36,451 nt of DNA from Nocardioidaceae bacterium (lineage in GTDB: Bacteria > Actinomycetota > Actinomycetes > Propionibacteriales > Nocardioidaceae). The position numbers and the translations under genes are program-made. The stretch covers positions 1 to 36,451 of the forward strand of contig JAICXL010000021.1 of NCBI GenBank assembly GCA_025980475.1, in the 5' to 3' direction. The notes beneath the pieces are model-generated. The model ran no database searches, had not been told where the DNA came from, and was given only the letters and a program-made list of their open reading frames with translations. Of this stretch, positions 8,554 to 36,451 are shown one piece after another. Every line of letters begins with the position of its first letter. The stretch's first letter is position 1.

Positions 8554-10044
8554 TCAGCGGCCGCAACGACAGGCGCCGAGCGCACCCGCGATCCGGTCGA
8601 GGCGGTCCTGGACCCACAGCTCGTTGCGGTGCCGGACCCGGTCGGCGACGGCGACGAAGACCAGCCGGTCACCGTCGAGGTCGGTGGCGAGGCCGGCCAG
8701 CCCGTGCACGCCGGTCAGGGTGCCGGTCTTGGCCCGGACGCGGCCGCGGGCCGCCCGGTAGGCCTGGTCGAAGCGGTAGGTCAGCGAGCCGGTGAAGCCC
8801 GCGACCGGGAGGCCGGTGACCACGTCCCGGAGCTGGGGACGGTCCGGGCTGGACGCCGTCCGCAGCACCTCGATGAGCGTTCGGGCGGTGATCCGGTCGT
8901 GGCGGGAGAGGCCGCTGCCGTCATAGAGCCGGTCGCCGGTGGTGTCGATCCCCAGTCGGCGCAGCACGCCCAGAACCGAGCGGGTCGCCGCAGCGAAGGA
9001 GCCGCGGTGCGCCTCGGCGAGGCCGACGTGCCGGGCGAGCACCTCCGCGCCCATGTTGTCGCTGACGTCGAGCACGTGCTGGACGATCTCGCCCAGCGGG
9101 GCACTCTGCACCTCCGCGACGGCGACCGACCCCGCGGGAGCGCGCCCGGGCCGGGGGCCGGCGACCACCTTCACGCCGGCGCGCTCGAGGGCCCTGGCGA
9201 AGAGCTGGGCGGCGAAGCGCGCCGGGTTGTGGACGAAGCCGGGGCCGGCGGGGTCGCGGCCCTCGTCCACCCACAGGGCGCTGATCGGCGACACCACGTC
9301 GGCGTGGTACTCCTCGGGCCACTCCGGGTCGAAGGCCGGTCCGGAGAAGAGCGACGCGTCGTAGCTGAGGTCGATGCGCCGGAGGTGCTGGCGCAGCAGC
9401 GTGGCGGCCGCCTCGCGGGCCAGGGTGGTGAGGTCCGCGCGGGCCGGGTAGAGCCCGGCCGCCGCCTTGGGAGTGCTGGCCAGGAACGGGTCGCCACCGC
9501 CGACGAGGACGACCCGACGCGTGCCCGGCAGCTGCCGGACGGTGGTGCTGAACCTGGCCATCGGACCGAGCGACTCCAGGGCCGCGGTCGTGGTCAGCAG
9601 CTTGGTGGTCGAGGCCGGGGTCACCGCGCCGCGGCCGTGCCGGAAGAGCATCCGGCCGTCGTCGAGAGCGGCGACCGCGACCACGACGTGCCGGCCGAGC
9701 CGACCGGAGCCGAGGTACGGCGCGACCGCCCTCGCCACCTTCGCCGGCGAGGCGGGGCCACCGTCGACGGCCGCCGCCACGGGTCGGGCCGCCGCCAGCT
9801 GTGGCAGGTCGAGCCCGCGGGGCGGCAGCACGCGGGCCGGGTCGGTCCGGGGGTTCGGGCCGGCGAGCCGGTGGTTCCCGAGGTCGCCGTGCCAGCCGGC
9901 GACCGCGACTGCGAGCAGGACCAGCACCAGCAGCTCGGGGAGCCAGCCGCGGAGCCGGCGGAGGCGACGCCGCCGGGTCGGCTGGGGGTGGGATTGCTCA
10001 CGCTCGACCACTGCACCCCTTTCCGATGTCCCGATCGCAGCCAT
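8554..10044 (-). CDS. dacB: D-alanyl-D-alanine carboxypeptidase/endopeptidase (PBP4, S13 family)
   Basis: Trims or cleaves peptidoglycan stem peptides outside the membrane. After a basic N-terminus there is one transmembrane segment (about residues 36-50). The penicillin-binding motifs follow in order: S145-T-T-K148 (SxxK), SDN in [13 protein letters not shown] (about 327) and KTG in RAKTGTLTG (about 436). The insertion between the first two motifs (about 160-300) is typical of class C PBP4 enzymes. The length of 496 residues is normal. It is divergent from ppa across a 65-bp gap and heads the leftward housekeeping run. Confidence 0.94.
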
Positions 10045-18148: not shown

Positions 18149-18163
18149 GGCTGCCATCTCCTT

Positions 18164-18262
18164 CGACTTCCTTCGCCGGTGCTAACCGGAGCAGGTTCGA
18201 GGGTCTGCGGATCTCCGCACTCTCAGCGCCCACGACGTGCCGTCGCGGCGCTCCCCTGTCGG
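18164..18262 (-). promoter_or_regulatory. TPP riboswitch (THI element)
   Basis: Read on the minus strand, the conserved core is present in order: an ACAGGGGAGC start, GGCGCTGAGAG, a short variable stem (TGCGGAGATCCGCA), GACCCTCGAACCTG, and the closing CTCCGGTTAGCACCGGCGAAGGA. It ends about 16 bases before the thiB ATG, so the ribosome-binding site lies just outside the aptamer. Control by sequestering translation initiation is therefore more likely than by a terminator. When thiamine pyrophosphate is plentiful, thiBPQ should be shut down. Confidence 0.96.
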
Positions 18263-18285
18263 ACGTCCTCCACCCTAGCCCACCC

Positions 18286-26382: not shown

Positions 26383-26458
26383 TGGAGCCGCCTGTCGGAA
26401 TCGAACCGACGACCTATTCATTACGAGTGAATCGCTCTACCGACTGAGCTAAGGCGGC
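26383..26458 (-). tRNA. tRNA-Thr (anticodon CGT)
   Basis: On the minus strand the acceptor stem GCCGCCT pairs with AGGCGGC, the D-arm is AGCTCAGTCGGTAGAGC, the anticodon stem-loop is ATTCA-CTCGTAA-TGAAT with anticodon CGT, and the T-arm is GTCGGTTCGATTCCGAC. The 3' CCA is encoded. The 76-nt cloverleaf is complete. It decodes ACG, a frequent threonine codon at this GC content. Confidence 0.97.
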
Positions 26459-26534: not shown

Positions 26535-26570
26535 ACAGGGGCGCGGCCCGCTTTGTCATGTGTTGCTCCC

Positions 26571-26606: not shown

Positions 26607-28199
26607 ATGGAGCTGCTGCCGTCCGCCCACGTCGACACGTTCTGCCGCGACCGGCTGCCAACGGCCGACGAGTGGCCGGAGTTCCTGACCGGACCGCCGG
26701 TGCCGGACTATCCCGACCGGCTGAACTGCGCCACCGTGCTGCTCGACGACACGATCAGCGAGCGTGGCGGCGACCGCCCCTGCCTGCACGCTCCGGGCTC
26801 GCCGACCTGGTCGTACGACGACCTGCGCGCGACCGCCAACCGGATAGCCCGGGTGCTCGTCGAGGACCACGGGCTCGTGCCCGGCAACCGGGTGCTGCTG
26901 CGCGGCCCCAACACCCAGTGGCTGAGCGCCTGCTGGTTCGGGGTGCTGAAGGCCGGTGGCGTCGCCGTCGCGACGATGCCGTTGCTGCGGGCCCATGAGC
27001 TGCAGGTCATCCACGACATCGCGAAGGTCGACCTGGCGCTGGTGGACCACCGCTTCCTCGAGGAGGTGCGAGGGGTCGCTGTCCCCGTCGTGCCCTTCGG
27101 GGGCGACACCGTGGACGACCTCACCGGGCGCGCCGTCGACCGGCCGGGTGACTTCGACGACGTGCTCACCTCCGCGGACGACGTCGCGCTGCTGGCCTTC
27201 ACCTCGGGCACCACCGGGCGACCGAAGTGCGCGATGCACTTCCACCGCGACGTGCTGGCGATGGCGGACACGTTCTCCGCGCGGGTCCTGGAGCCGACGC
27301 CGGACGACGTCTTCACCGGAACCCCACCGATAGCCTTCACGTTCGGGCTCGGCGGCGACCTCGTCTTCCCGCTGCGCGCCGGTGCCTCGGCCCTGATGAT
27401 CGAGAAGGCGTCGCCGACCGAGCTCGCCGGCCTCATCGAGGACTTCGGCGTCACCACCCTCTTCACCGCGCCGACGGCCTACAAGGCGATGCTCGCGGCG
27501 GGCACCAGGCTCGGCTCGCTCAGGTCGGCGGTCTCGGCCGGGGAGCACCTGCCGGCCGCCGTCTGGGAGGCCTTCCGTGAGGCGACCGGGGTGAAGATCA
27601 TCGACGGCATCGGCTCGACCGAGATGCTGCACATCTTCATCGCCTCGGCCGGCGACGACATCCGCCCGGGCTCGACAGGTCGCGCGGTGCCCGGCTACGT
27701 CGCCACCGTCGTCGACGAGGAGGGTCGCGAGCTGCCCGACGGCGAGCCCGGGCTGCTGGCCGTCAAGGGACCGACCGGCTGCCGCTACCTCGACGACCCG
27801 CGCCAGCAGACCTACGTCCAGCACGGCTGGAACCTCACCGGCGACACCTATCGCAAGGACGCCGACGGCTACTTCTGGTACCTCGCCCGCAGCGACGACA
27901 TGATCATCAGCTCCGGCTACAACATCGCCGCGCCCGAGGTCGAGGAGGCGGTGCTCAGGCATCCCGACGTCGCCGAGTGCGCCGTGGTCGGCTGGCCCGA
28001 CGAGCAGCGCGGCATGGTCGTCAAGGCCTACGTCGTGCTCACCGAGGGCGTGGCCGCGGAACCCGAGCTGGTGCCCAAGCTGCAGGACTTCGTCAAGGCC
28101 GAGATCGCGCCCTACAAGTACCCCCGCGCGATCGAGTTCGTCGACCAGCTGCCGCGCACCCAGACGGGCAAGCTGCAACGGTTCCGGCTCCGTGCCTGA
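26607..28199 (+). CDS. Aryl-CoA ligase, probably 2-aminobenzoate-CoA ligase
   Basis: 530 residues; activates a carboxylic acid with ATP and CoA through an acyl-adenylate. The AMP-forming family motifs are complete: FTSGTTGRPKCAMHFHRD (P-loop, about 197-214), DGIGSTEMLHIF (A5), NLTGDTYRKDADGYFWYLARSDDMIISSGYNI (A7-A8) and PRTQTGKLQRF with the catalytic lysine near 521. The long N-terminus with DYPDRLNCATVLLDD and the GSTEMLHIF motif are typical of the benzoate/2-aminobenzoate-CoA ligase group. The aromatic substrate is inferred mainly from the neighbouring monooxygenase/reductase fusion. The stop codon overlaps the PaaX-family gene by 8 bp. Salicylate or benzoate are alternative substrates. 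Confidence 0.85.
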   Translation: MELLPSAHVDTFCRDRLPTADEWPEFLTGPPVPDYPDRLNCATVLLDDTISERGGDRPCLHAPGSPTWSYDDLRATANRIARVLVEDHGLVPGNRVLLRGPNTQWLSACWFGVLKAGGVAVATMPLLRAHELQVIHDIAKVDLALVDHRFLEEVRGVAVPVVPFGGDTVDDLTGRAVDRPGDFDDVLTSADDVALLAFTSGTTGRPKCAMHFHRDVLAMADTFSARVLEPTPDDVFTGTPPIAFTFGLGGDLVFPLRAGASALMIEKASPTELAGLIEDFGVTTLFTAPTAYKAMLAAGTRLGSLRSAVSAGEHLPAAVWEAFREATGVKIIDGIGSTEMLHIFIASAGDDIRPGSTGRAVPGYVATVVDEEGRELPDGEPGLLAVKGPTGCRYLDDPRQQTYVQHGWNLTGDTYRKDADGYFWYLARSDDMIISSGYNIAAPEVEEAVLRHPDVAECAVVGWPDEQRGMVVKAYVVLTEGVAAEPELVPKLQDFVKAEIAPYKYPRAIEFVDQLPRTQTGKLQRFRLRA

Positions 28200-28998
28200 C
28201 CTGCCCCCGCGCCAGCTGATCCTGTCCCTCTACGGCCTCTACGCGCGGGCCGAGGGGGCGTGGCTCTCGGTGGCGTCGCTGATCGCCCTCATGGCAGAGT
28301 TCGGCGTCGACGGCGCGGCCGTCCGCTCGTCGGTCTCCCGGCTCAAGCGGCGCGGTGTGCTCGAGGCCGTCAGGCGCGACGGCAGTGCCGGCTACGCCCT
28401 TTCCGGCGAGGCACTGGAAGTGCTGCGCGAGGGCGACGTCCGGATCTGGTCACGGCCACGCGCGACCCCCGCCGACGGCTGGCTGGTGGTGGTCTTCTCC
28501 GTGCCCGAGACCGAGCGGGAGAGGAGGCACGCCCTGCGCTCCACCCTGGCCCGGCTGGGCTTCGGCACCGCGGCGCCCGGTGTCTGGGTGGCCCCGGGGA
28601 CGGCGTACGACGAGACCGCCCGCGCCCTGCGGCGGCAGGGCCTCGCGTCGTACACGGAGCTCTTCCGCGGCGACTACCTCGGCTCCGGTGAGGTGGAGCA
28701 GCGGATGCGCGAGTGGTGGGACCTCGACCAGCTCGAGAAGCTCTACGACGACTTCCGGATCGCCTGGGAGCCGGCGCTGGCCGTGCGGCGGCCGAGCCCC
28801 CGCGACGCCTTCGCGGCCTACGTGCCGATGCTCACGGCGTGGCGGCGGCTGCCCTACCTCGACCCGGGGCTCCCGCTGGAGCACCTCCCGGGCGACTGGA
28901 CCGGCGTCCGGGCCGGCGAGGTGTTCACCGTCCTGGACGGCCGGTTGCGGGCACCGGCCGAGGAGCACGCACACACGGTCGTGCACGGCGCGCGCTGA
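28192..28998 (+). CDS. PaaX-family transcriptional regulator
   Basis: 268 residues. An N-terminal winged-helix region (about 5-75: PRQLILSLYGLYAR, LIALMAEFGVDGAAVRSSVSRLKRRGVL, GYALSGEALEVL) is followed by the PaaX core with WLVVVFSVPETERERRHALRSTLARLGFG, PGVWVAP, and a C-terminal domain with RDAFAAYVPMLTAWRRLPYLDPGLP. PaaX proteins repress aromatic-acid catabolism and are released by an aryl-CoA thioester. The GTG start lies inside the last codons of the ligase gene, so the two are translationally coupled. It is the obvious candidate to sense the CoA-activated substrate and control this cluster. Confidence 0.92.
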   Translation: MPDLPPRQLILSLYGLYARAEGAWLSVASLIALMAEFGVDGAAVRSSVSRLKRRGVLEAVRRDGSAGYALSGEALEVLREGDVRIWSRPRATPADGWLVVVFSVPETERERRHALRSTLARLGFGTAAPGVWVAPGTAYDETARALRRQGLASYTELFRGDYLGSGEVEQRMREWWDLDQLEKLYDDFRIAWEPALAVRRPSPRDAFAAYVPMLTAWRRLPYLDPGLPLEHLPGDWTGVRAGEVFTVLDGRLRAPAEEHAHTVVHGAR

Positions 28999-29055
28999 GC
29001 CGCCGGGAAGTCCCGCGGGTGAGTGTCGAACCGGCGCATGGGTACCGGCCCGCGC

Positions 29056-29271
29056 ATGACCGACGACAAGACCGAGACAGTCCAGGCCGTGGTCGACCGG
29101 GTGTCGTCCTACCAGGACGGCGCCACCGAGGGCACCATCGCCGACGAGCTGCGCCGGGGCCTCAAGGAAGCCGGCGTCGACCTCTCCGACGACGAGGTGC
29201 AGAAGCTCGCCGACGCCATCGAGGACGCCAACGGCGAGGTTTCCGTCTCCGAGGTGCTGGGCCACGCCTGA
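29056..29271 (+). CDS. Small acidic protein, unknown
   Basis: 71 residues from ATG 29056; GTG 29023 and ATG 29038 are in frame. The composition is strongly acidic and helical: EGTIADELRRGLKEAGVDLSDDEVQKLADAIEDANGEVSVSEVLGHA. I do not recognise a family. Proper codon usage and a stop that abuts the convergent RidA stop without a single spare base argue that it is real. It could be read from the ligase/PaaX transcript. An association with the pathway is not shown. Confidence 0.65.
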   Translation: MTDDKTETVQAVVDRVSSYQDGATEGTIADELRRGLKEAGVDLSDDEVQKLADAIEDANGEVSVSEVLGHA

Positions 29272-29664
29272 TCAGTCGGGCAGGACCGCCAGGCCCTGCA
29301 CCTCGACGAGCGCCTCGGCGTCCCACAGCCGGGGGACCCCGATGCCGGCCATCGCGGGGTACTCGTGGCCGACGAGCCGCTGCCACACCTGGCCGATCTC
29401 GCGGGCGTGTGCACGGTAGTCGTCCATGTCGACGACGTATACGCTCAGCGAGGCCAGGTGCTCGGGCGCACCGCCGGCCTCGGCCAGCGCGGTGAGCAGG
29501 TTGCCGAGTGCCTGCTCGAACTGGGCGACCACTCCCCCCTCGACGATCGAGCCGTCGGAGGTCATTCCGGTCTGGCCGGCGAGGTGGACCGTCGTACCCC
29601 TGGCCACCACAGCGTGGCTGAAGCCACTGGGTCTCGGCAGCGACGAGGGGTTGACCCGCTTCAC
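29272..29664 (-). CDS. RidA/YjgF-family enamine/imine deaminase
   Basis: 130 residues, the normal size of this trimeric family. Conserved landmarks are VHLAGQTGM, FEQALGNLLTALAEAG, SLSVYVVDMDDY and the C-terminal GVPRLWDAEALVEVQGLAVLP. By eye, R112 and E121 match the arginine and glutamate that bind the carboxylate and activate water in RidA deaminases. The GTG start overlaps the SDR stop in a GTGA arrangement. In this cluster the natural substrate would be the ring enamine produced from 2-aminobenzoyl-CoA; a general imine-clearing role is the alternative. Confidence 0.9.
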   Translation of the reverse strand: MKRVNPSSLPRPSGFSHAVVARGTTVHLAGQTGMTSDGSIVEGGVVAQFEQALGNLLTALAEAGGAPEHLASLSVYVVDMDDYRAHAREIGQVWQRLVGHEYPAMAGIGVPRLWDAEALVEVQGLAVLPD

Positions 29665-30401
29665 GACTGCACCGCTCCCCCGTCGACGTTGAGGCCCTGA
29701 CCGTTGATCGCCCCGTTGTCGACGCACAGCATCACCGCGGACGCCACCTCCTCCGGCGCCACCAGCCGGTGGATCGGCTGCTTGCGCTCGAGGACCGCGC
29801 GCGCCTCCTCCGCGGACCTGCCCGTGCGCGACGCGATCTCCGCGACGGAACCGTCGGTCATCGGGGTGTCCACGTAGCCGGGGCAAACCGCGTTGACGGT
29901 GACGCCCGTGCGCGCGACCTCGGCGGCAGCGGAGCGGACCAGGCCCAGGACGCCGTGCTTGGCCGCGGTGTACGGCGCGATCCGCGTCTCGCCCACCTTT
30001 GACGCGACCGAGGCGATCACCACGATCCGCCCGTGGCCCGCGGACGTCATCGCCGGCAGCGCCCGGCGGATGCAGCGGAAGGGCGCGGTGAGGTTCAGGT
30101 CGAGCATCCGCTGCCACTCCTGGTCGCTCGTCGACGCCAGCGGCGAGGACGAGCCCGCGCCGGCGTTGACCACGAGAACCTCCACCGGGCCCCAGGCGGC
30201 CTCGACGGTCTCGAACATCGCCTCCGCGGCGTCGGGGTCGGTGACGTCGGTCGGCACGACCAGTGACTCGCCCGGCAGCGAGACGGCCTCGAGGGCAGCC
30301 TTGTCGCGAGCGGCCAGCGCGACCCGGTGCCCGGCGGCCGACAGCACCTGCGCGCAGGCCAGCCCGATGCCGCTGCTGGCGCCGGTGACGAGCGCGATCA
30401 T
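29661..30401 (-). CDS. Short-chain dehydrogenase/reductase
   Basis: 246 residues. The NAD(P)-binding TGASSGIG motif is at the very N-terminus, followed by VLVVNAGAG (NAG), the catalytic serine in VIASVASK, YTAAK (Y-x-x-x-K), and PGYVDTPM. The frame is open to 30506, but sequence upstream of ATG 30401 is not SDR-like. The first strand starts at residue 2, so no N-terminal extension is present. The likely role is oxidation of a hydroxyacyl-CoA intermediate or reduction of a ring ketone in the anthranilate pathway. It follows the crotonase gene by 46 bp and is coupled to ridA. Confidence 0.93.
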   Translation of the reverse strand: MIALVTGASSGIGLACAQVLSAAGHRVALAARDKAALEAVSLPGESLVVPTDVTDPDAAEAMFETVEAAWGPVEVLVVNAGAGSSSPLASTSDQEWQRMLDLNLTAPFRCIRRALPAMTSAGHGRIVVIASVASKVGETRIAPYTAAKHGVLGLVRSAAAEVARTGVTVNAVCPGYVDTPMTDGSVAEIASRTGRSAEEARAVLERKQPIHRLVAPEEVASAVMLCVDNGAINGQGLNVDGGAVQS

Positions 30402-30447
30402 CGGGGTCCCCGGAGAAGCGCGAGCGCAGCGAGCGGCTTCGTGGGAG

Positions 30448-31272
30448 TCACTTGCCCTCCCAGCGGGCCGGCCGCTTCTCGTTGAACGCGGCGTGGAACT
30501 CGGCATGGTCGTGGGTGGTCATCAGCAGCGCCTGGGTCATCGCGTCGAGCTCCATCGCGGCGCCGATCGACATGTCGAGCTCGCGGGTGATCAACGACTT
30601 GGTCTGGGCGTAGGCGAGCGTCGGCCCGTCGGCGAGCCGCCGCGCGAGCGTGGACACCGCGGCGTCCAGGGCGTCGTCCTCGACCAGTTGCGAGACCAGC
30701 CCGTAGCGGTCGGCGGTCTCGGCGTCGATGGTGTCGCCGAGCATCAGCAGCTCGGTCGCGCGGCCGGCGCCGACGACCCTGGGCAGCAGGTACGCCGCCC
30801 CCATGTCCCCGCCGGAGAGCCCCACCCTGGTGAACAGGAACGCGAACCTCGCCTTGCGCGTGCAGATCCGGAAGTCCGACGCCAGGGCAACCACCGCCCC
30901 GGCGCCCGCGGCGATGCCCTGGATGCCGCTGATGATCGGCACCGGGCACTCCCGCATCGCCCTGATCGCGTCACCGGTCATCCTGGTGAAGCCCATCAGG
31001 TCGCGGGCGTCCATCTTGATCAGCTCGCCGATGATCTCGTTGACGTCCCCGCCGCCGCAGAACCCCTTGCCCTCGCCGCGGATCACCAGCACCCGGGTGT
31101 CGCCGCGGTGCGGCAGCTCGTGCAGCAGGTCGCGCAGGTCGGCGTAGCTCTCGAAGGTGAGCGGGTTCATCTTCTCGGGCCGGTCCAGCGTCACCGTGGC
31201 GACGCCGTCGGTCACCTCGAAGCGGAAGTGCCGCCAGTCGTCGTGGATCGGCACCGAGCCGCGGTACTGCAT
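30448..31272 (-). CDS. Crotonase-superfamily protein, candidate ring-opening hydrolase
   Basis: 274 residues. The crotonase fold is clear: ATVTLDRPEKMNPLT, GEGKGFCGGGDVNEI and VPIISGIQGIAAGAGAVVALASDFRI (oxyanion hole). Aligned by eye with enoyl-CoA hydratase, both catalytic glutamates are replaced: V127 for the first and F147 for the second. Instead D156 in GLSGGDMGAAYLLPRVVG lies where MenB-, BadI- and dehalogenase-type crotonases carry an aspartate. It is therefore probably not a simple hydratase and may cleave a cyclic beta-keto-thioester. The ATG at 31272 overlaps the stop of the acyl-CoA dehydrogenase (TGATG) with AGGAG upstream. Confidence 0.85.
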   Translation of the reverse strand: MQYRGSVPIHDDWRHFRFEVTDGVATVTLDRPEKMNPLTFESYADLRDLLHELPHRGDTRVLVIRGEGKGFCGGGDVNEIIGELIKMDARDLMGFTRMTGDAIRAMRECPVPIISGIQGIAAGAGAVVALASDFRICTRKARFAFLFTRVGLSGGDMGAAYLLPRVVGAGRATELLMLGDTIDAETADRYGLVSQLVEDDALDAAVSTLARRLADGPTLAYAQTKSLITRELDMSIGAAMELDAMTQALLMTTHDHAEFHAAFNEKRPARWEGK

Positions 31273-32435
31273 CACTGCTCCTCTCCACGCGCACGCACCA
31301 GCCCCCGGCCGATGATCGTGCGCTGCACCTCGGACGCGCCCTCGTAGATCCGGGGCGCGCGCACCTCACGATAGAGCCGCTCCAGCAGGTGCCCGCGTTG
31401 CAGCGCCCGGGCGCCGTGCAGCTGCACCGCCTGGTCGACGACCCATTGCGCCGACTCGGTCGCGAACAGCTTCGCCATCGCCGCCCGGCTGGTCACGTCC
31501 GCGGCCGGCGCCTTTGCGTCGTACGACGAAGCAGCGCTCCTCACCAGCAACCGGGCAGCCTCCACGCGGGTCGCCATCTCGGCCAGCGCGTGCTCGACCG
31601 CCTGCTGCCGCACCAGGGGGCCGCCGCGCACCTCACGCGTGCAGGCCCAGTCCACGGCAGCGTCGAGCGCGGCCTGGGCCATCCCGACGGCGAAGGCGCC
31701 GACGCTCGGCCGGAAGAGGTCGAGGGTGCGCATCGCCACCGCGAAGCCGCGGTCGACCTCGCCGAGCACGTCCTCAGGGCCCACGCGGACGCCGTCGAAG
31801 GACAGCCGCCCGATCGCGTGCGGGGCCAGCAGGTCCAGGTGCTCGCCGGAGAGCCCGGACGCGTCGCCCGGGACAGCGAACGCGGTCACCCCGCGAGCGC
31901 CCGCGTCGGCCGTCGTGCGTGCGAAGACCGTGTAGACGTCGGCCTCGGGCGCGTTGGAGATCCACAGCTTCTCGCCGTGCAGCAGCCAGCCGTCGCCGTC
32001 GGCGCGAGCAGACAGAGACAGCGCCGCGGCATCGGATCCGGCGCCCTCCTCGCTCAGCGCGAACGCGGCGACCACCTCACCGGTCACCACGCCGGGGAGC
32101 CACCGCTCGACCGCCGACGGGCGACCGGACTGCAGGATCGGGTAGCTGCCCAGCCCCTGCAGGGCCAGCGCGGTCTCCGCCTCGGTGCTGGTCTGGGCAA
32201 GCGCCTCGCGCAGCAGGCACAGCTGCATGGCCGCGGCGTCGCCCGAGGACAGGTCGAGCGGCTCCTCGGCAGCGCCGCCGAAGAGCCCGCGCAGCAGCCC
32301 GTGCTTCCCCAGCTCGAGCAGCAGTGGTCGGTTGACACGGCCCTCCGTCGCGGGCACCGCGGCCAGGTGGGTCTGCGCGATGTCACGGACGTGCTCGACG
32401 AAGGCGTGCTGGGTGTCGTCCAGGGCGTAGCGCAT
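31272..32435 (-). CDS. Acyl-CoA dehydrogenase of the anthranilate cluster
   Basis: 387 residues from ATG 32435. Segments include FALSEEGAGSDAAALSLSA (FAD contact), WLLHGEKLWISNAPEADVY, QLHGARALQRGHLLERLYREVRAPRIYEGASEVQRTIIGRGLV. The YEGASE glutamate sits in the catalytic position. The N-terminal domain diverges from the enzyme at 18518-19687. It is first in a four-gene leftward operon with the crotonase, SDR and RidA genes. It probably dehydrogenates an acyclic dicarboxylyl-CoA after ring opening. The mRNA appears leaderless (see the promoter entry). Confidence 0.9.
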   Translation of the reverse strand: MRYALDDTQHAFVEHVRDIAQTHLAAVPATEGRVNRPLLLELGKHGLLRGLFGGAAEEPLDLSSGDAAAMQLCLLREALAQTSTEAETALALQGLGSYPILQSGRPSAVERWLPGVVTGEVVAAFALSEEGAGSDAAALSLSARADGDGWLLHGEKLWISNAPEADVYTVFARTTADAGARGVTAFAVPGDASGLSGEHLDLLAPHAIGRLSFDGVRVGPEDVLGEVDRGFAVAMRTLDLFRPSVGAFAVGMAQAALDAAVDWACTREVRGGPLVRQQAVEHALAEMATRVEAARLLVRSAASSYDAKAPAADVTSRAAMAKLFATESAQWVVDQAVQLHGARALQRGHLLERLYREVRAPRIYEGASEVQRTIIGRGLVRARGEEQ

Positions 32436-32442
32436 GCCGGCC

Positions 32443-32472
32443 ACGCTATTGCGCCTTGACAACGTCCGTCAA
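32443..32472 (-). promoter_or_regulatory. Leaderless promoter of the leftward operon
   Basis: TTGACG (32472-32467) and TAGCGT (32448-32443), 18 bp apart on the minus strand. The ATG at 32435 lies 8 bases beyond the -10, where the transcript should begin, and no ribosome-binding site precedes it. Confidence 0.6.
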
Positions 32473-32482
32473 GAACGCAATA
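32447..32482. promoter_or_regulatory. Long palindromic operator in the divergent promoter region
   Basis: Left arm TATTGCG-C-CTTGAC (32447-32460) and right arm GTCAAG-AA-CGCAATA (32468-32482) are inverted copies apart from one extra base. The arms are separated by 7 bases. It covers the -35 elements of both divergent promoters, so a bound repressor would silence both units. The PaaX-family protein encoded in the cluster is the first candidate ligand. Confidence 0.8.
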
Positions 32483-32486
32483 TATT
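32456..32486 (+). promoter_or_regulatory. Leaderless promoter of the monooxygenase/reductase gene
   Basis: A perfect consensus -35 TTGACA (32456-32461) is followed by an AT-rich -10 region: AATATA with a 17-bp spacer or TATATT (32481-32486) with 19 bp. The ATG at 32494 is about 7 bases past the -10, and there is no ribosome-binding site, so the mRNA should start at or next to the initiation codon. Confidence 0.65.
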
Positions 32487-32493
32487 CGACCGC

Positions 32494-34881
32494 ATGAAGA
32501 TCGCAGTGGTCGGTGGTGGCCCGGGCGGGCTCTACTTCAGCGCGCTCGCCCAGCAGCTCGCCGCCCTCACCGGCGGCCGCCACGAGATCACCGTCTGGGA
32601 GCGCAACGCCGCCGACGACACCTTCGGCTTCGGGGTCGTGTTCAGCGACGAGACCCTCGGTGGCATCGAGCACGCCGATCCCGTGGTGCACGAGCAGATG
32701 GCCGCGGAGTTCGCGGTCTGGGACGACATCGACGTGCACTTCAAGGGCGAGGTGGTCACCAGCGGCGGACACGCGTTCGCGGCGATGCCCCGCAAGCGGC
32801 TGCTCGAGATCCTGCAGCGCCGCTGCGCCGACCTCGGCGTCGACGTCGGTTTCCGGACGACGGCGCCGGACGTCGAGGAGCTCGCCGCCACGCACGACCT
32901 GGTCGTCGCCGCCGACGGGCTCAACTCGATCGTCCGCTCGACGTTCGCGGACAGCTTCTGCCCGAGCCTCGACGTGCGCGACTGCAAGTACATGTGGCTC
33001 GGCACCGACAAGGTCTTCGACGCCTTCAAGTTCTACGTCGCCGAGACCCCCTACGGCGTCATGCAGATCCACGGCTACCCCTACGACGCCCACGGCAGCA
33101 CCTTCATCGTCGAGATGAACAGCGCGGTCTGGGAGCGGGCAGGGTTCGCGGAGTACGACGACCGTCCCTGGCTGCCCGGCGAGTCCGACGAGAAGTCGAT
33201 CGCCCTCATCCGGGAGCTCTTCGCCGACGTGCTGGACGGGCACGAGGTGATGGCCAACAACTCCCGGTGGCTCAACTTCACCACCGTGCGCAACGAGCGC
33301 TGGCGGCACGGGAACGTCGTGCTCCTCGGCGACGCCGCTCACACGGCGCACTTCTCGATCGGCTCCGGCACCAAGCTGGCGATGGAGGACGCCCTCTCCC
33401 TCGCCGCCTGCCTGCACGAGCAGCCGAGCGTGCCGACCGCGCTCGCCGCCTACGAGGAGGAGCGCAAGGCGGTCGTCGCCTCGACCCAGCGCGCCGCGCA
33501 GGCCAGTCTGGAATGGTTCGAGAACCTCGGGCAGTACACCCACCAGCACCCGCTGCAGTTCGGCTTCAACATCATGACCCGCAGCCGCCGGGTCACCTAC
33601 GACAACCTCCGCGTCCGCGACCCGGAGTTCGTCGCCCGGCTGGACGAGTGGTTCGCCGCGGAGGCCGAGCGTCTCGGCCACGGCCCCGGCGACGTGCGGC
33701 CGCCGATGTTCCAGCCGTTGGTGCTGCGGACCCCTGACGGTCCCGGGATGTCACTGGCCAACCGGGTGATCGTCTCGCCGATGGACATGTACGTCGCCAC
33801 CGACGGCATGCCGAACGACTTCCACCTGGTCCACCTCGGCGGCAAGGCGCTCGGCGGGGCCGGCCTGGTGATGACCGAGATGGTCTGCGTCTCCCCGACC
33901 GGCCGGATCACGCCCGGCTGCACCGGCCTCTGGACCGACGGGCAGCGCGACGGCTACGCCCGCATCGTCGACTTCGTGCACGAGCAGTCATCCGCGCGGA
34001 TCGGCCTGCAGCTCGGTCACTCCGGCGGCAAGGGCTCGACGAAGCTGATGTGGGAGGGCATCGACGAGCCACTCCAGGACGGCAACTGGCCGGTCTGCGC
34101 GGCCTCGCCCGTCCCCTACAAGCCCGGGGTCAACCAGGTGCCCACCGAGCTCGACCTTGCCGGGATGGAGGAGATCCGGCAACAGTTCGTCGACGCCGCG
34201 CGTCGCGGCGCGGAGGCGGGCTTCGACCTGCTCGAGCTGCACTGCGCGCACGGCTACCTGCTCTCGGGGTTCCTCTCCCCGGTCACCAACCGGCGCACCG
34301 ACGAGTACGGCGGCCCCGTCGAGGCGCGGATGCGCTACCCGCTCGAGGTGTTCACCGCGATGCGGGAGGTCTGGCCGGCCGACCGGCCGATGACTGTGCG
34401 GATCTCGGCGACCGACTGGGTCGAGGACGGCCAGCCGCTCGAGGACGCCCTGCGCATCGCCGAGGCGTTCGCCGACGCCGGCGCCGCCGCGATCGACGTC
34501 TCGACCGGGCAGGTCACCGCGGCGGAGAAGCCGGCGTTTGGACGGAGCTACCAGACTCCGTTCGCCGACGCGGTCCGCAACCGGGTGCACGTGCCGACGA
34601 TCGCGGTCGGGGTGATCTCGTCCTGGGACGACGTCAACTCCATCCTGCTCGCCGGTCGGGCCGATCTGTGCGCGCTCGGCCGGGTGCACCTCTACGACCC
34701 GTCCTGGACGTTGCACGCCTCGGTCGAGCAGGACTACGACGGTCCCGGTGCCCGCTGGCCGTTGCCGTGGCGCGCCGGTCGGCGCAAGCCCCAGACCGGC
34801 CGCACCGATGGCCCGCGTCCCCGCCTGGAGCTGGTCCGCGGCGAGGAACCGCGGACGCAGCACCGCCGCTGGCGCCCCTGA
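32494..34881 (+). CDS. Bifunctional flavin monooxygenase / OYE-type reductase (2-aminobenzoyl-CoA monooxygenase/reductase-like)
   Basis: 795 residues in two flavoprotein domains. Residues 1 to about 395 are a class A flavin monooxygenase of the salicylyl-CoA 5-hydroxylase type: VVGGGPGGLYFSAL (FAD), and GDAAHTAHFSIGSGTKLAMEDA near 280. Residues from about 405 are an Old Yellow Enzyme TIM barrel: LANRVIVSPMDMYV, GLVMTEMVCVSPTGR, LQLGHSGGKGST, ELHCAHGYLLSGFLSPVTNRRTDEYGG, and DLCALGRVHLYDP for FMN. This fusion is known from 2-aminobenzoyl-CoA monooxygenase/reductase of Azoarcus evansii, which hydroxylates and then reduces the ring to 2-amino-5-oxocyclohex-1-enecarbonyl-CoA. The frame extends upstream, but ATG 32494 begins the FAD fold exactly. 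Confidence 0.92.
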   Translation: MKIAVVGGGPGGLYFSALAQQLAALTGGRHEITVWERNAADDTFGFGVVFSDETLGGIEHADPVVHEQMAAEFAVWDDIDVHFKGEVVTSGGHAFAAMPRKRLLEILQRRCADLGVDVGFRTTAPDVEELAATHDLVVAADGLNSIVRSTFADSFCPSLDVRDCKYMWLGTDKVFDAFKFYVAETPYGVMQIHGYPYDAHGSTFIVEMNSAVWERAGFAEYDDRPWLPGESDEKSIALIRELFADVLDGHEVMANNSRWLNFTTVRNERWRHGNVVLLGDAAHTAHFSIGSGTKLAMEDALSLAACLHEQPSVPTALAAYEEERKAVVASTQRAAQASLEWFENLGQYTHQHPLQFGFNIMTRSRRVTYDNLRVRDPEFVARLDEWFAAEAERLGHGPGDVRPPMFQPLVLRTPDGPGMSLANRVIVSPMDMYVATDGMPNDFHLVHLGGKALGGAGLVMTEMVCVSPTGRITPGCTGLWTDGQRDGYARIVDFVHEQSSARIGLQLGHSGGKGSTKLMWEGIDEPLQDGNWPVCAASPVPYKPGVNQVPTELDLAGMEEIRQQFVDAARRGAEAGFDLLELHCAHGYLLSGFLSPVTNRRTDEYGGPVEARMRYPLEVFTAMREVWPADRPMTVRISATDWVEDGQPLEDALRIAEAFADAGAAAIDVSTGQVTAAEKPAFGRSYQTPFADAVRNRVHVPTIAVGVISSWDDVNSILLAGRADLCALGRVHLYDPSWTLHASVEQDYDGPGARWPLPWRAGRRKPQTGRTDGPRPRLELVRGEEPRTQHRRWRP

Positions 34882-34885
34882 TCGG

Positions 34886-34924
34886 GCCCGGTCAGCAAGC
34901 CCGGTCAGCAGGCCCGGTCAGCAG
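34886..34924. repeat. Three 13-bp tandem repeats between convergent genes
   Basis: GCCCGGTCAGCAA/G at 34886-34898, 34899-34911 and 34912-34924; the last two are identical and the first differs at its final base. The last copy covers the stop codon of the convergent hydrolase gene (34918-34920), so unit gain or loss could duplicate that stop. Confidence 0.85.
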
Positions 34925-36451
34925 GCAAGGCCGTTGCGCGGCACCTTGCCGCGCACGAGGTAGCCCTGCACGGCGTTGTCGATGCAGGAGTTGCCCTGGT
35001 GGAAGGCGGTGTGGCCGTCGCCGTTGCGGGTGATCAGGACGCCGGAGTCGAGCTGACGGGCGAGCGCCCTGGCCCACTCGATCGGAGTCGCCGGGTCACG
35101 GGTGGTGCCGGTCACCACGATCGGTGGGGCGCCCTTGGCGTGCAGGGCGTGGGAGCTGTTGCCGGTGTGGATCGGCCAGTAGTGGCAGGTCGACAAGCCG
35201 AAGGCGAAGATCTTGCCGAAGGTCGGCGAGGCCTTGACGAACTCCGGGAAGTGCGACGGCACCTGCGAGGTCGGGATGGCGTCGTCGTGGTCGAGGCAGT
35301 TGACGTCGTAGAGGGCCTCGAGGGAGTTGTCGAGGTAGCCGTTCGGGCCACGCGAGGTGTAGAGGTCGGCCAGCGACAGCAGCTTGGAGCCGCTGCCCTG
35401 CTGGAGGGCCTGCTGCAGGCCGGCGGTCAGCTGCGGCCAATAGCTGCGGACGTAGAGCGGCATCCAGATGCCGAGGACAGCGGTGCCGGCGGTGAGCTGG
35501 CGGCTGGTGTCGGTTGGCAGCGGGTGTGCCTCGACCTGGACGAGGAACTGCCGGATCCGCCGGGTGCCCTGGTCGACCGACGAGCCCAGGATGCAGTGCC
35601 CCTGGGAGACGCAGTTGGCGACGTAGGCACGCAGGGCGACCTCGAAGCCGTGCGCCTGCTCCAGGGAGAGCTTCTCGTTGGAGAGCGCGGGGTTGATCGC
35701 CCCGTCGAGCACCATCCGGCCGACGTGGTGCGGGAACAGGTTGGCGTAGGTGGCGCCGAGGAAGGTGCCGTAGGAGGCGCCGAAGTAGTCCAGCTTGGGC
35801 TCCCGGAGCGCGCTCCGCAGGATGTCCATGTCCTTGGCGACCTCGACCGTCGACATGTGCCTGGCCAGCGCGCCGCTGTCGCGCAGGCAACCCTCGCCCA
35901 AGCGGTGGACCTCGGCGTTCATCTGGTGTCGCTCGGCGGCGGTGTCCGGATCGGGGTCGGAGGCAACGAAGTGGTCGAGCTCGGCTGTGCTGGCGCACTG
36001 CAGCGGGGTGCTGTGCCCGACACCGCGCGGGTCGAAGCCGACGATGTCGAAGTACTTCGACAGCACGCTGCCGAAGACGACCGCGCCGGCGGCGGCGTAC
36101 TGCACCCCGGAACCTCCCGGGCCGCCGGGGTTGACCACGAGCGAGCCGACCTTGTGCGCCTGGTCGGTGGCGGGCACCTCGAGCACGGCCAGCTGGATCG
36201 TGCGGCCCTGGGGCCTGGCGTAGTCGAGCGGGACGGTCAGCTGCGCGCACTTGTCGGCGCTGCAGGCGTGCCAGGCCAGCCGCTGGTGGTAGAACCGCGC
36301 CAGCGCCGGGGACGTGGCCGGCATCGGTGAGCTGCTCGCCGACGCGCCCGGGGTCGGGCTGGTCTCTGGCACGGGCGACGGGCTGGTGGCCCCGGAGGAG
36401 CCCGCGGCCTGCGGCTGGGCGGCCCCCCGCCACACGAACAGCCCGGCGAGC
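34918..36451 (-). CDS. Secreted alpha/beta hydrolase, TAP-like peptidase (5' end missing)
   Basis: At least 505 residues. The frame stays open to the window edge; the residues before the first possible start (LAGLFVWRG) look like the end of a signal peptide, so the true start lies outside. A Ser/Pro/Thr-rich linker (about 10-40) precedes the hydrolase. Landmarks are LVVNPGGPGGSG (oxyanion), FDIVGFDPRGVGHSTPL, GASYGTFLGATYANLFPHHVGRMVLDGA (nucleophile serine) and GDGHTAFHQGNSC (histidine), with a typical TAP-like C-terminal domain. Relatives are the SlpD/SlpE and Tap tripeptidyl aminopeptidases of Streptomyces. It should act outside the cell on peptides. Confidence 0.92.
   Translation of the reverse strand, partial: LAGLFVWRGAAQPQAAGSSGATSPSPVPETSPTPGASASSSPMPATSPALARFYHQRLAWHACSADKCAQLTVPLDYARPQGRTIQLAVLEVPATDQAHKVGSLVVNPGGPGGSGVQYAAAGAVVFGSVLSKYFDIVGFDPRGVGHSTPLQCASTAELDHFVASDPDPDTAAERHQMNAEVHRLGEGCLRDSGALARHMSTVEVAKDMDILRSALREPKLDYFGASYGTFLGATYANLFPHHVGRMVLDGAINPALSNEKLSLEQAHGFEVALRAYVANCVSQGHCILGSSVDQGTRRIRQFLVQVEAHPLPTDTSRQLTAGTAVLGIWMPLYVRSYWPQLTAGLQQALQQGSGSKLLSLADLYTSRGPNGYLDNSLEALYDVNCLDHDDAIPTSQVPSHFPEFVKASPTFGKIFAFGLSTCHYWPIHTGNSSHALHAKGAPPIVVTGTTRDPATPIEWARALARQLDSGVLITRNGDGHTAFHQGNSCIDNAVQGYLVRGKVPRNGLAC

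Follow-up and report, generated by a model that had tools for sequence, protein, structure and literature searches.

Putative anthranilate-CoA degradation genes with a PaaX-linked palindrome in a Nocardioidaceae genome

We analysed a contig of a Nocardioidaceae bacterium (C101, 36,451 bases; the whole of this stretch is called the window). The contig belongs to a metagenome-assembled genome of 2.76 Mb in 114 contigs, 92.8% complete. Positions 26607-34881 contain seven genes and a palindrome that together look like an actinobacterial-type cluster for the aerobic, coenzyme A (CoA)-dependent degradation of anthranilate, an assignment from sequence comparison to which we give a probability of roughly 85%. 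Anthranilate ties the breakdown of tryptophan, indole, auxin and quinolones to central metabolism. A first-pass annotation had placed here a ligase, a PaaX regulator, a fusion protein, RidA, a short-chain dehydrogenase/reductase (SDR), a crotonase and an acyl-CoA dehydrogenase; all were found, with Pfam or NCBIfam matches. Start codons were chosen by hand from translations of open reading frames (ORFs), not taken from a gene-finder prediction. The features are the following.

26607-28199, plus strand: aryl-CoA ligase, most likely an anthranilate-CoA ligase, 530 residues (homology to the pAL1 ligase; PDB match)
28192-28998, plus strand: transcriptional regulator of the PaaX type; its cognate site is likely the palindrome at 32452-32479 (PaaX, PaaX_M and PaaX_C domains)
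29272-29664, minus strand: RidA-like protein, 130 residues, with Met105 for the RidA arginine; putative deamination step (PF01042)
29661-30401, minus strand: SDR, 246 residues (PF00106, 9e-56; YTAAK at residue 144)
30448-31272, minus strand: crotonase-superfamily enzyme, 274 residues; putative ring hydrolase or isomerase (NF006107)
31272-32435, minus strand: acyl-CoA dehydrogenase, 387 residues, IYEG at residue 363 (PF00441, 8.4e-48)
32452-32479, no strand: imperfect palindrome of 28 bp lying between the divergently read dehydrogenase and fusion genes; putative operator (matrix score 25.9 bits)
32494-34881, plus strand: fusion of a flavin monooxygenase and an old yellow enzyme (OYE) of the 2-aminobenzoyl-CoA monooxygenase/reductase (ACMR) type, 795 residues (NF006101)

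The ligase and PaaX genes read rightward. The RidA-like, SDR, crotonase and acyl-CoA dehydrogenase genes form a tight leftward run, in which the end of the SDR gene and the start of the RidA-like gene share 4 bases. The fusion gene, again rightward, is separated from the dehydrogenase start by 58 bases. All Pfam matches are far above chance: AMP-binding 1.9e-69, PaaX_M 1.5e-22, Ribonuc_L-PSP (PF01042) 1.2e-18 on the longer ORF of the RidA-like gene, adh_short 9e-56, ECH_1 1.9e-45, Acyl-CoA_dh_1 8.4e-48, Oxidored_FMN 5e-56 and FAD_binding_3 4.7e-16. Beta-oxidation-like and RidA-like genes adjoining a ligase and a fusion are what is expected of aerobic 2-aminobenzoyl-CoA clusters.

The best PDB match of the ligase is 4wv3, 'Anthranilate-CoA ligase' (5.7e-85). 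It shares 58% identity with its pAL1 counterpart from Arthrobacter sp. Rue61a, and both contain the segment AFTFGLGG, presumably part of the acyl pocket. Neither reaches the cut-off of the benzoate-CoA ligase model TIGR02262 (375.25 bits; window ligase 336.7, pAL1 ligase 338.4). The pAL1 ligase was active on anthranilate in E. coli extracts (PMC3534580, 2012). We equate the tested protein, ARUE_113p00220, with ARUE_RS22905 through gene order. Benzoate as the substrate of the window ligase was rejected, because the same genome has a separate box cluster (contig C46, L106, C46:17000-28000) with BoxB, BoxC, a benzoate-CoA ligase and a second PaaX-type gene. The box ligase passes TIGR02262 at 524.9 bits; at the position of AFTFGLGGD in the window ligase it reads FFAYGIGNS.

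The fusion contains FAD_binding_3 and Oxidored_FMN in one chain, exceeds the NF006101 cut-off (1198.3 versus 1078 bits) and is 64% identical to the pAL1 fusion. A scan for relatives of the fusion confirmed 325, of which the best 80 were kept, and four plasmid loci were added (loci are cited by L numbers). Near the fusion in some of them are genes that feed anthranilate, which supports anthranilate as the substrate. L084 encodes a tryptophan dioxygenase together with an enzyme resembling kynureninase (KYNU_C 3.2e-25; TIGR01814 238.1 bits, just under the cut-off of 246.4), L085 has the quinolone dioxygenase AqdC1, and pAL1 encodes the conversion of quinaldine to anthranilate (PMC3534580). Counts of gene families near fusions are rough, since the ORF caller took antisense frames in several places. 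Genes for a thiamine diphosphate-dependent enzyme and for a member of the cyclase family (PF04199 in L025) were observed near the fusion in L014, L025, L043, L045 and L058. They possibly encode an isatinate decarboxylase and an isatin hydrolase, respectively, feeding anthranilate.

In the host genome, no match was found to a Rieske oxygenase alpha subunit, nor to gentisate dioxygenase (TIGR02272), a model that was over its cut-off in 0 of 14 control genomes and so had no positive control. A tryptophan-dioxygenase-like gene is present, as are six thiolases over cut-off and three matches to 3HCDH domains on two contigs. The identity to the pAL1 ligase, the PDB match and the lack of a detected gentisate dioxygenase or Rieske alpha subunit make the anthranilate reading well supported: the gene set is real, and by these comparisons its substrate is probably anthranilate.

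Similarity to known systems is summarized as follows. pAL1 (NC_009453.1, L083) shares with the window the ligase, the fusion, the RidA-like protein (54%) and the PaaX-type regulator, its two regulators being 46% and 44% identical to that of the window. It differs in having genes for a fumarylacetoacetate hydrolase-like protein (FAH), a cupin and a TesB-like thioesterase in place of the SDR, crotonase and acyl-CoA dehydrogenase; these three have no match in the window. pAL1 also has an operator-like site (L083:8601-8628), which precedes FAH at 8654, the gene that opens the run closed by ligase and fusion. Plasmid p_3 of the alphaproteobacterium Phyllobacterium sp. 628 (NZ_CP050300.1, L086) shares the ligase (53%), fusion (51%), SDR (41%), crotonase (48%), dehydrogenase (43%) and RidA-like protein (34%). 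However, a MarR gene lies inside its set, no PaaX match was found, and its best operator score is 8.7; it also has a 3-hydroxyacyl-CoA dehydrogenase, a second crotonase and ATP-binding cassette transporters. The 2-aminobenzoate clusters of Azoarcus (Aromatoleum) evansii were reportedly described by Schuhle et al. in 2001. This organism, unlike the window host, is proteobacterial; it shares the ligase and the monooxygenase/reductase, and its further steps are ascribed to beta-oxidation enzymes (PMC3534580, PMC4539516). In the Nocardioidaceae loci L004 and L010 and in L126, L127, L130 and L131 of the same family, the same seven genes occur in the same order and on the same strands, with the site between the dehydrogenase and fusion genes.

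The homology of ligase, fusion and regulators to pAL1 supports an aerobic CoA-dependent anthranilate cluster under a PaaX-type regulator. Its novelty for actinobacteria, which had also been claimed, does not stand: an actinobacterial CoA route, with two PaaX-related regulators on pAL1, was already in print in 2012 (PMC3534580). The gene set is a further instance of the known actinobacterial anthranilate-CoA clusters, and the pathway itself is known. Likewise, the set can be called reorganised at most relative to the Azoarcus cluster, and not as a novelty, since other Nocardioidaceae share its gene order. What deserves further study is the putative operator, together with the unusual active sites of two proteins, the crotonase and the RidA-like protein.

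The same gene set, which the first-pass annotation had proposed to look for in related genomes, does recur there. Gene content was determined by tblastn with the window proteins and thresholds of our own in 83 loci (L003-L085, leaving aside the proteobacterial L086). All seven genes were found in 18 of the 83, with identical order and strands in five; 4 of 12 further stretches from the family also share both order and strands. Two or more of the SDR, crotonase and dehydrogenase genes are present in 35/83 loci, whilst 6/83, pAL1 among them, carry two or more of the FAH, cupin and thioesterase genes. Neither set was found in the other 42, some of which are short contigs or partial sets. The NF006101 cut-off was passed in 19 of 149 sampled genomes of the family and in 2 of 24 genomes of the genus, the host included, and presence is thus patchy.

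The only other genus member over this cut-off (L123, G116:C61) has a fusion with a higher NF006101 score (1336.9 bits) yet with 48% identity to the window fusion, and may have a different origin. L008, on a contig labelled Acidobacteria, has a fusion 74% identical to that of the window, with a PaaX gene and an operator of the actinobacterial kind; this is either transfer or misbinning. In L014, L024 and L029 the fusion is followed by acetate-CoA-ligase-like, AMP-binding and methylmalonyl-CoA-mutase-like genes, assigned by profile scan in L024 and by sequence family in the other two, which hints at yet another lower route.

The regulator is a three-domain PaaX protein (PaaX, PaaX_M and PaaX_C all over cut-off). 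It is under the cut-off of TIGR02277, the model of the phenylacetate repressor PaaX proper (134.5 versus 264.55 bits). Niewerth et al. in 2013 are said to have shown that MeqR2 is a PaaX-type repressor of pAL1, released by anthraniloyl-CoA, with the operator core TGACGnnCGTCA. We take ARUE_RS22915 to be MeqR2 from its place downstream of the fusion; if so, it is the one 44% identical to the window regulator. The window site CAACGTCCGTCA differs from the MeqR2 core by two changed bases in one half-site. The exact core is present in other loci of the set, and the window site fits the matrix of its relatives at 25.9 bits. The MeqR2 consensus is useless alone: with at most two mismatches it has 31 matches in the window versus a chance mean of 33. 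The operator is seen only through comparison across loci.

Gapped palindromic words were counted in 353 regions upstream of cluster genes and in 8205 background windows, the latter containing the sites themselves. TTGAC-N7-GTCAA ranked first (22/353 versus 9/8205), and TGACG-N2-CGTCA, which equals the MeqR2 consensus, was among the next (14/353 versus 18/8205). Over 84 loci, palindrome counts were 19 versus a mean of 3.8 (maximum 7) and 11 versus 0.45 (maximum 2) in 20 simulations. Three GC-rich words were enriched as well: AGCCG-6 (14/353 versus 16/8205), CAGCC-8 (12 versus 14) and TTCGC-7 (10 versus 14). All occurrences of the first two and 8 of 10 of the third lie about 120 bases ahead of the RidA-like start. 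They were set aside as operators because they are probably inside the neighbouring coding gene.

Counting the window, 47 of 85 loci have the shared core TTGACGnnCGT, on either strand, within -130 to +20 of the fusion start, versus 25 of 9988 other 150-base windows. In 48 aligned sites, G and C are conserved at 98% in symmetric outer positions, outside the searched core, and the consensus once made symmetric is CGTnTTnTTGACGnnCGTCAAnAAnACG. A matrix trained on 46 sites was run on those same loci, the further family stretches being the sole held-out test. In the window it finds a single strong site, 32452-32479 (25.9 bits; next best 6.0). The window and the 84 loci together contain 105 sites of at least 13 bits, 96 near starts of cluster genes and nine elsewhere; at 14 bits, 100 sites were observed versus five in simulated sequence. 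Half of the operator with one mismatch occurs at 17 places in the genome versus 14 for the reversed control, and hence the half-site alone is unspecific. The two exact places are the window site and C67:13724, the latter scoring only 2.8 on the full matrix. The box-cluster region has a best score of 8.2.

The site goes together with the regulator gene. With PaaX defined by at least 40% identity and the site counted anywhere in the locus, a 16-bit site accompanies PaaX in 52 of 53 loci and occurs in 13 of the 31 that have no PaaX match (Fisher p 3e-9, relatedness ignored); several of these 13 are short contigs. Eleven of the 12 held-out stretches were counted, L134 being dropped as near-identical to L006. 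The site was found in 7/7 with a PaaX of at least 50% identity, in six of them directly before a tested cluster gene, versus 1/4 with a distant PaaX or none. By these comparisons the palindrome is a recurrent feature ahead of such operons across actinobacteria, its presence follows that of PaaX, and the window regulator is likely cognate to the putative operator at 32452-32479. The latter may serve as a marker for finding clusters of this kind, also those with a different lower module. A literature search returned no paper on this operator across actinobacteria, which is weak evidence of absence, as most subscription papers lay outside its coverage.

The reactions may proceed as follows. The ligase, by its close homology to the tested enzyme, would form 2-aminobenzoyl-CoA. 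The fusion would then hydroxylate and afterwards reduce the ring with O2 and NADH, giving 2-amino-5-oxocyclohex-1-ene-carboxyl-CoA, as its family and the Azoarcus enzyme suggest. In the third step the RidA-like protein may aid the release of ammonia to give 2,5-dioxocyclohexane-carboxyl-CoA, and in the fourth the crotonase may hydrolytically open the ring between C1 and C2, producing 4-oxopimeloyl-CoA. The SDR and acyl-CoA dehydrogenase would ready the chain for ordinary beta-oxidation encoded at other places in the genome; the order of the crotonase, SDR and dehydrogenase steps is a guess. The PaaX-type repressor, bound to the 32452-32479 palindrome, would silence the two divergent operons until anthraniloyl-CoA accumulates, with binding and effector modelled on MeqR2 and the site itself taken from comparison.

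The later steps may differ from standard beta-oxidation, as two active sites are unusual. In canonical RidA imine deaminases the catalytic arginine is at position 105. Met105 of the RidA-like protein faces an arginine in two of the three PDB alignments shown (6tcc, 5yu2), and methionine occupies this position in 59 of 62 aligned RidA-like sequences, window included. The crotonase passes NF006107 (403.8 versus 330 bits), and its best PDB match is 3g64, 'putative enoyl-CoA hydratase' (4e-116). Enoyl-CoA hydratases have two catalytic glutamates. In the crotonase, V127 and F147 face the two glutamates of the hydratase-like paralogue from the p_3 cluster of Phyllobacterium. Of 38 aligned sequences 35 keep Asp156, which lines up with an aspartate of the PaaG isomerase. 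The IYEG motif is kept in the dehydrogenase and YxxxK in the SDR.

In the accessible part of the literature on the Azoarcus CoA route, no single enzymes are assigned to the steps after ring reduction. Our literature search returned no paper on the enzymes of these steps, and with most subscription papers outside its coverage this too is weak evidence of absence. The CoA ester of a C7H8O4 acid has been reported, only in anthranilate-grown Arthrobacter (PMC3534580). This is the acid formula of 2,5-dioxocyclohexane-carboxyl-CoA. Our hypothesis is deamination by the RidA-like protein followed by hydrolytic ring opening by the crotonase. The compact seven-gene set, in a layout common to members of the family, makes these steps assayable.

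A wider model can be drawn in which actinobacteria share a ring-attack core (anthranilate ligase, ACMR fusion, Met105 Rid protein, PaaX-type sensor of anthraniloyl-CoA and 28-bp operator) with interchangeable lower modules. In the window this module would consist of SDR, crotonase and dehydrogenase, in pAL1 of FAH, cupin and thioesterase. On this model the Rid protein with Met105 would be a dedicated enamine hydrolase that does without the RidA arginine, and the crotonase, lacking the glutamates, would be a ring-opening hydrolase of a new type acting on 2,5-dioxocyclohexane-carboxyl-CoA. Taken as a whole this model is tentative, and we would not bet on all its parts holding together.

The strongest competing explanation keeps the anthranilate pathway but makes the crotonase an isomerase, with another enzyme opening the ring and the RidA-like protein only clearing a side product. 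It competes with the third and fourth steps alone, and its odds overlap those of the anthranilate assignment. The alignment of Asp156 with PaaG and the missing RidA arginine speak for it, whereas against it both the crotonase gene and the RidA-like gene accompany the fusion in Phyllobacterium as well as in actinobacteria. We regard it as a serious possibility that nevertheless falls short of an even chance.

Several observations weigh against the interpretation developed above. The window RidA-like protein lacks the canonical arginine, and no glutamate was found in either hydratase column of 38 aligned crotonases (three of them at 31-33% identity). In the 48 aligned operator sites the palindrome shows weak conservation in its right half beyond CGT, and 19 of 84 loci have no 16-bit site. 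At the ligase promoter the window offers no more than a degenerate site (1.3 bits at 26564), and a scan for promoters and terminators gave nothing, with no consensus promoter. Kynureninase was not matched in the host genome, and hence no source of anthranilate is known in it; all absences from this genome are soft, given its 92.8% completeness. Finally, the NCBI name of NF006101 is 'bifunctional salicylyl-CoA 5-hydroxylase/oxidoreductase'.

This name suggests a salicylate pathway, in which the ligase makes salicylyl-CoA, the fusion hydroxylates C5, and the route leads on to gentisate. However, the pAL1 fusion, which adjoins the ligase tested on anthranilate, bears the same family name, and gentisate dioxygenase was unmatched in the genome (with no positive control and an incomplete assembly); on these grounds salicylate was rejected as the leading explanation. 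Moreover, the RidA-like gene and the OYE reductase half would have no evident role there, and the fusion neighbours in some relatives feed anthranilate, so that this pathway appears very improbable. Least probable of all is that the upper pathway is the same but its true intermediate is 5-hydroxyanthraniloyl-CoA instead of the ring-reduced product. Six of the 83 loci, pAL1 included, could suggest this: each has two or more of the FAH, cupin and thioesterase genes but no more than one from the group of SDR, crotonase and dehydrogenase. So could the CoA ester of a C7H7NO3 acid, presumably hydroxyanthraniloyl-CoA, that was reported in Arthrobacter (PMC3534580). Against it, the window has no match to the FAH, cupin and thioesterase genes and keeps a full OYE half, and 5-hydroxyanthraniloyl-CoA is reported to form when NADH is limiting (PMC3534580).

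Other features were noted around the anthranilate cluster. The 71-residue ORF at 29056-29271 (plus strand), between paaX and the RidA-like gene, has no tblastn match in the 84 loci at E 1e-5. The alpha/beta hydrolase gene with a TAP-like C-terminal domain at 34918-36450 (minus strand) is open at the contig end. A region of another locus, L105:9127-10659, matches a wax ester synthase. The tRNA-Thr(CGT) gene at 26383-26458 (minus strand) lies 148 bases ahead of the ligase gene and, given the patchy distribution of the fusion in the family, could mark an insertion site. A thiamine pyrophosphate riboswitch was found at 18151-18267 of the window (minus strand; 59 bits versus a gathering score of 54.3).

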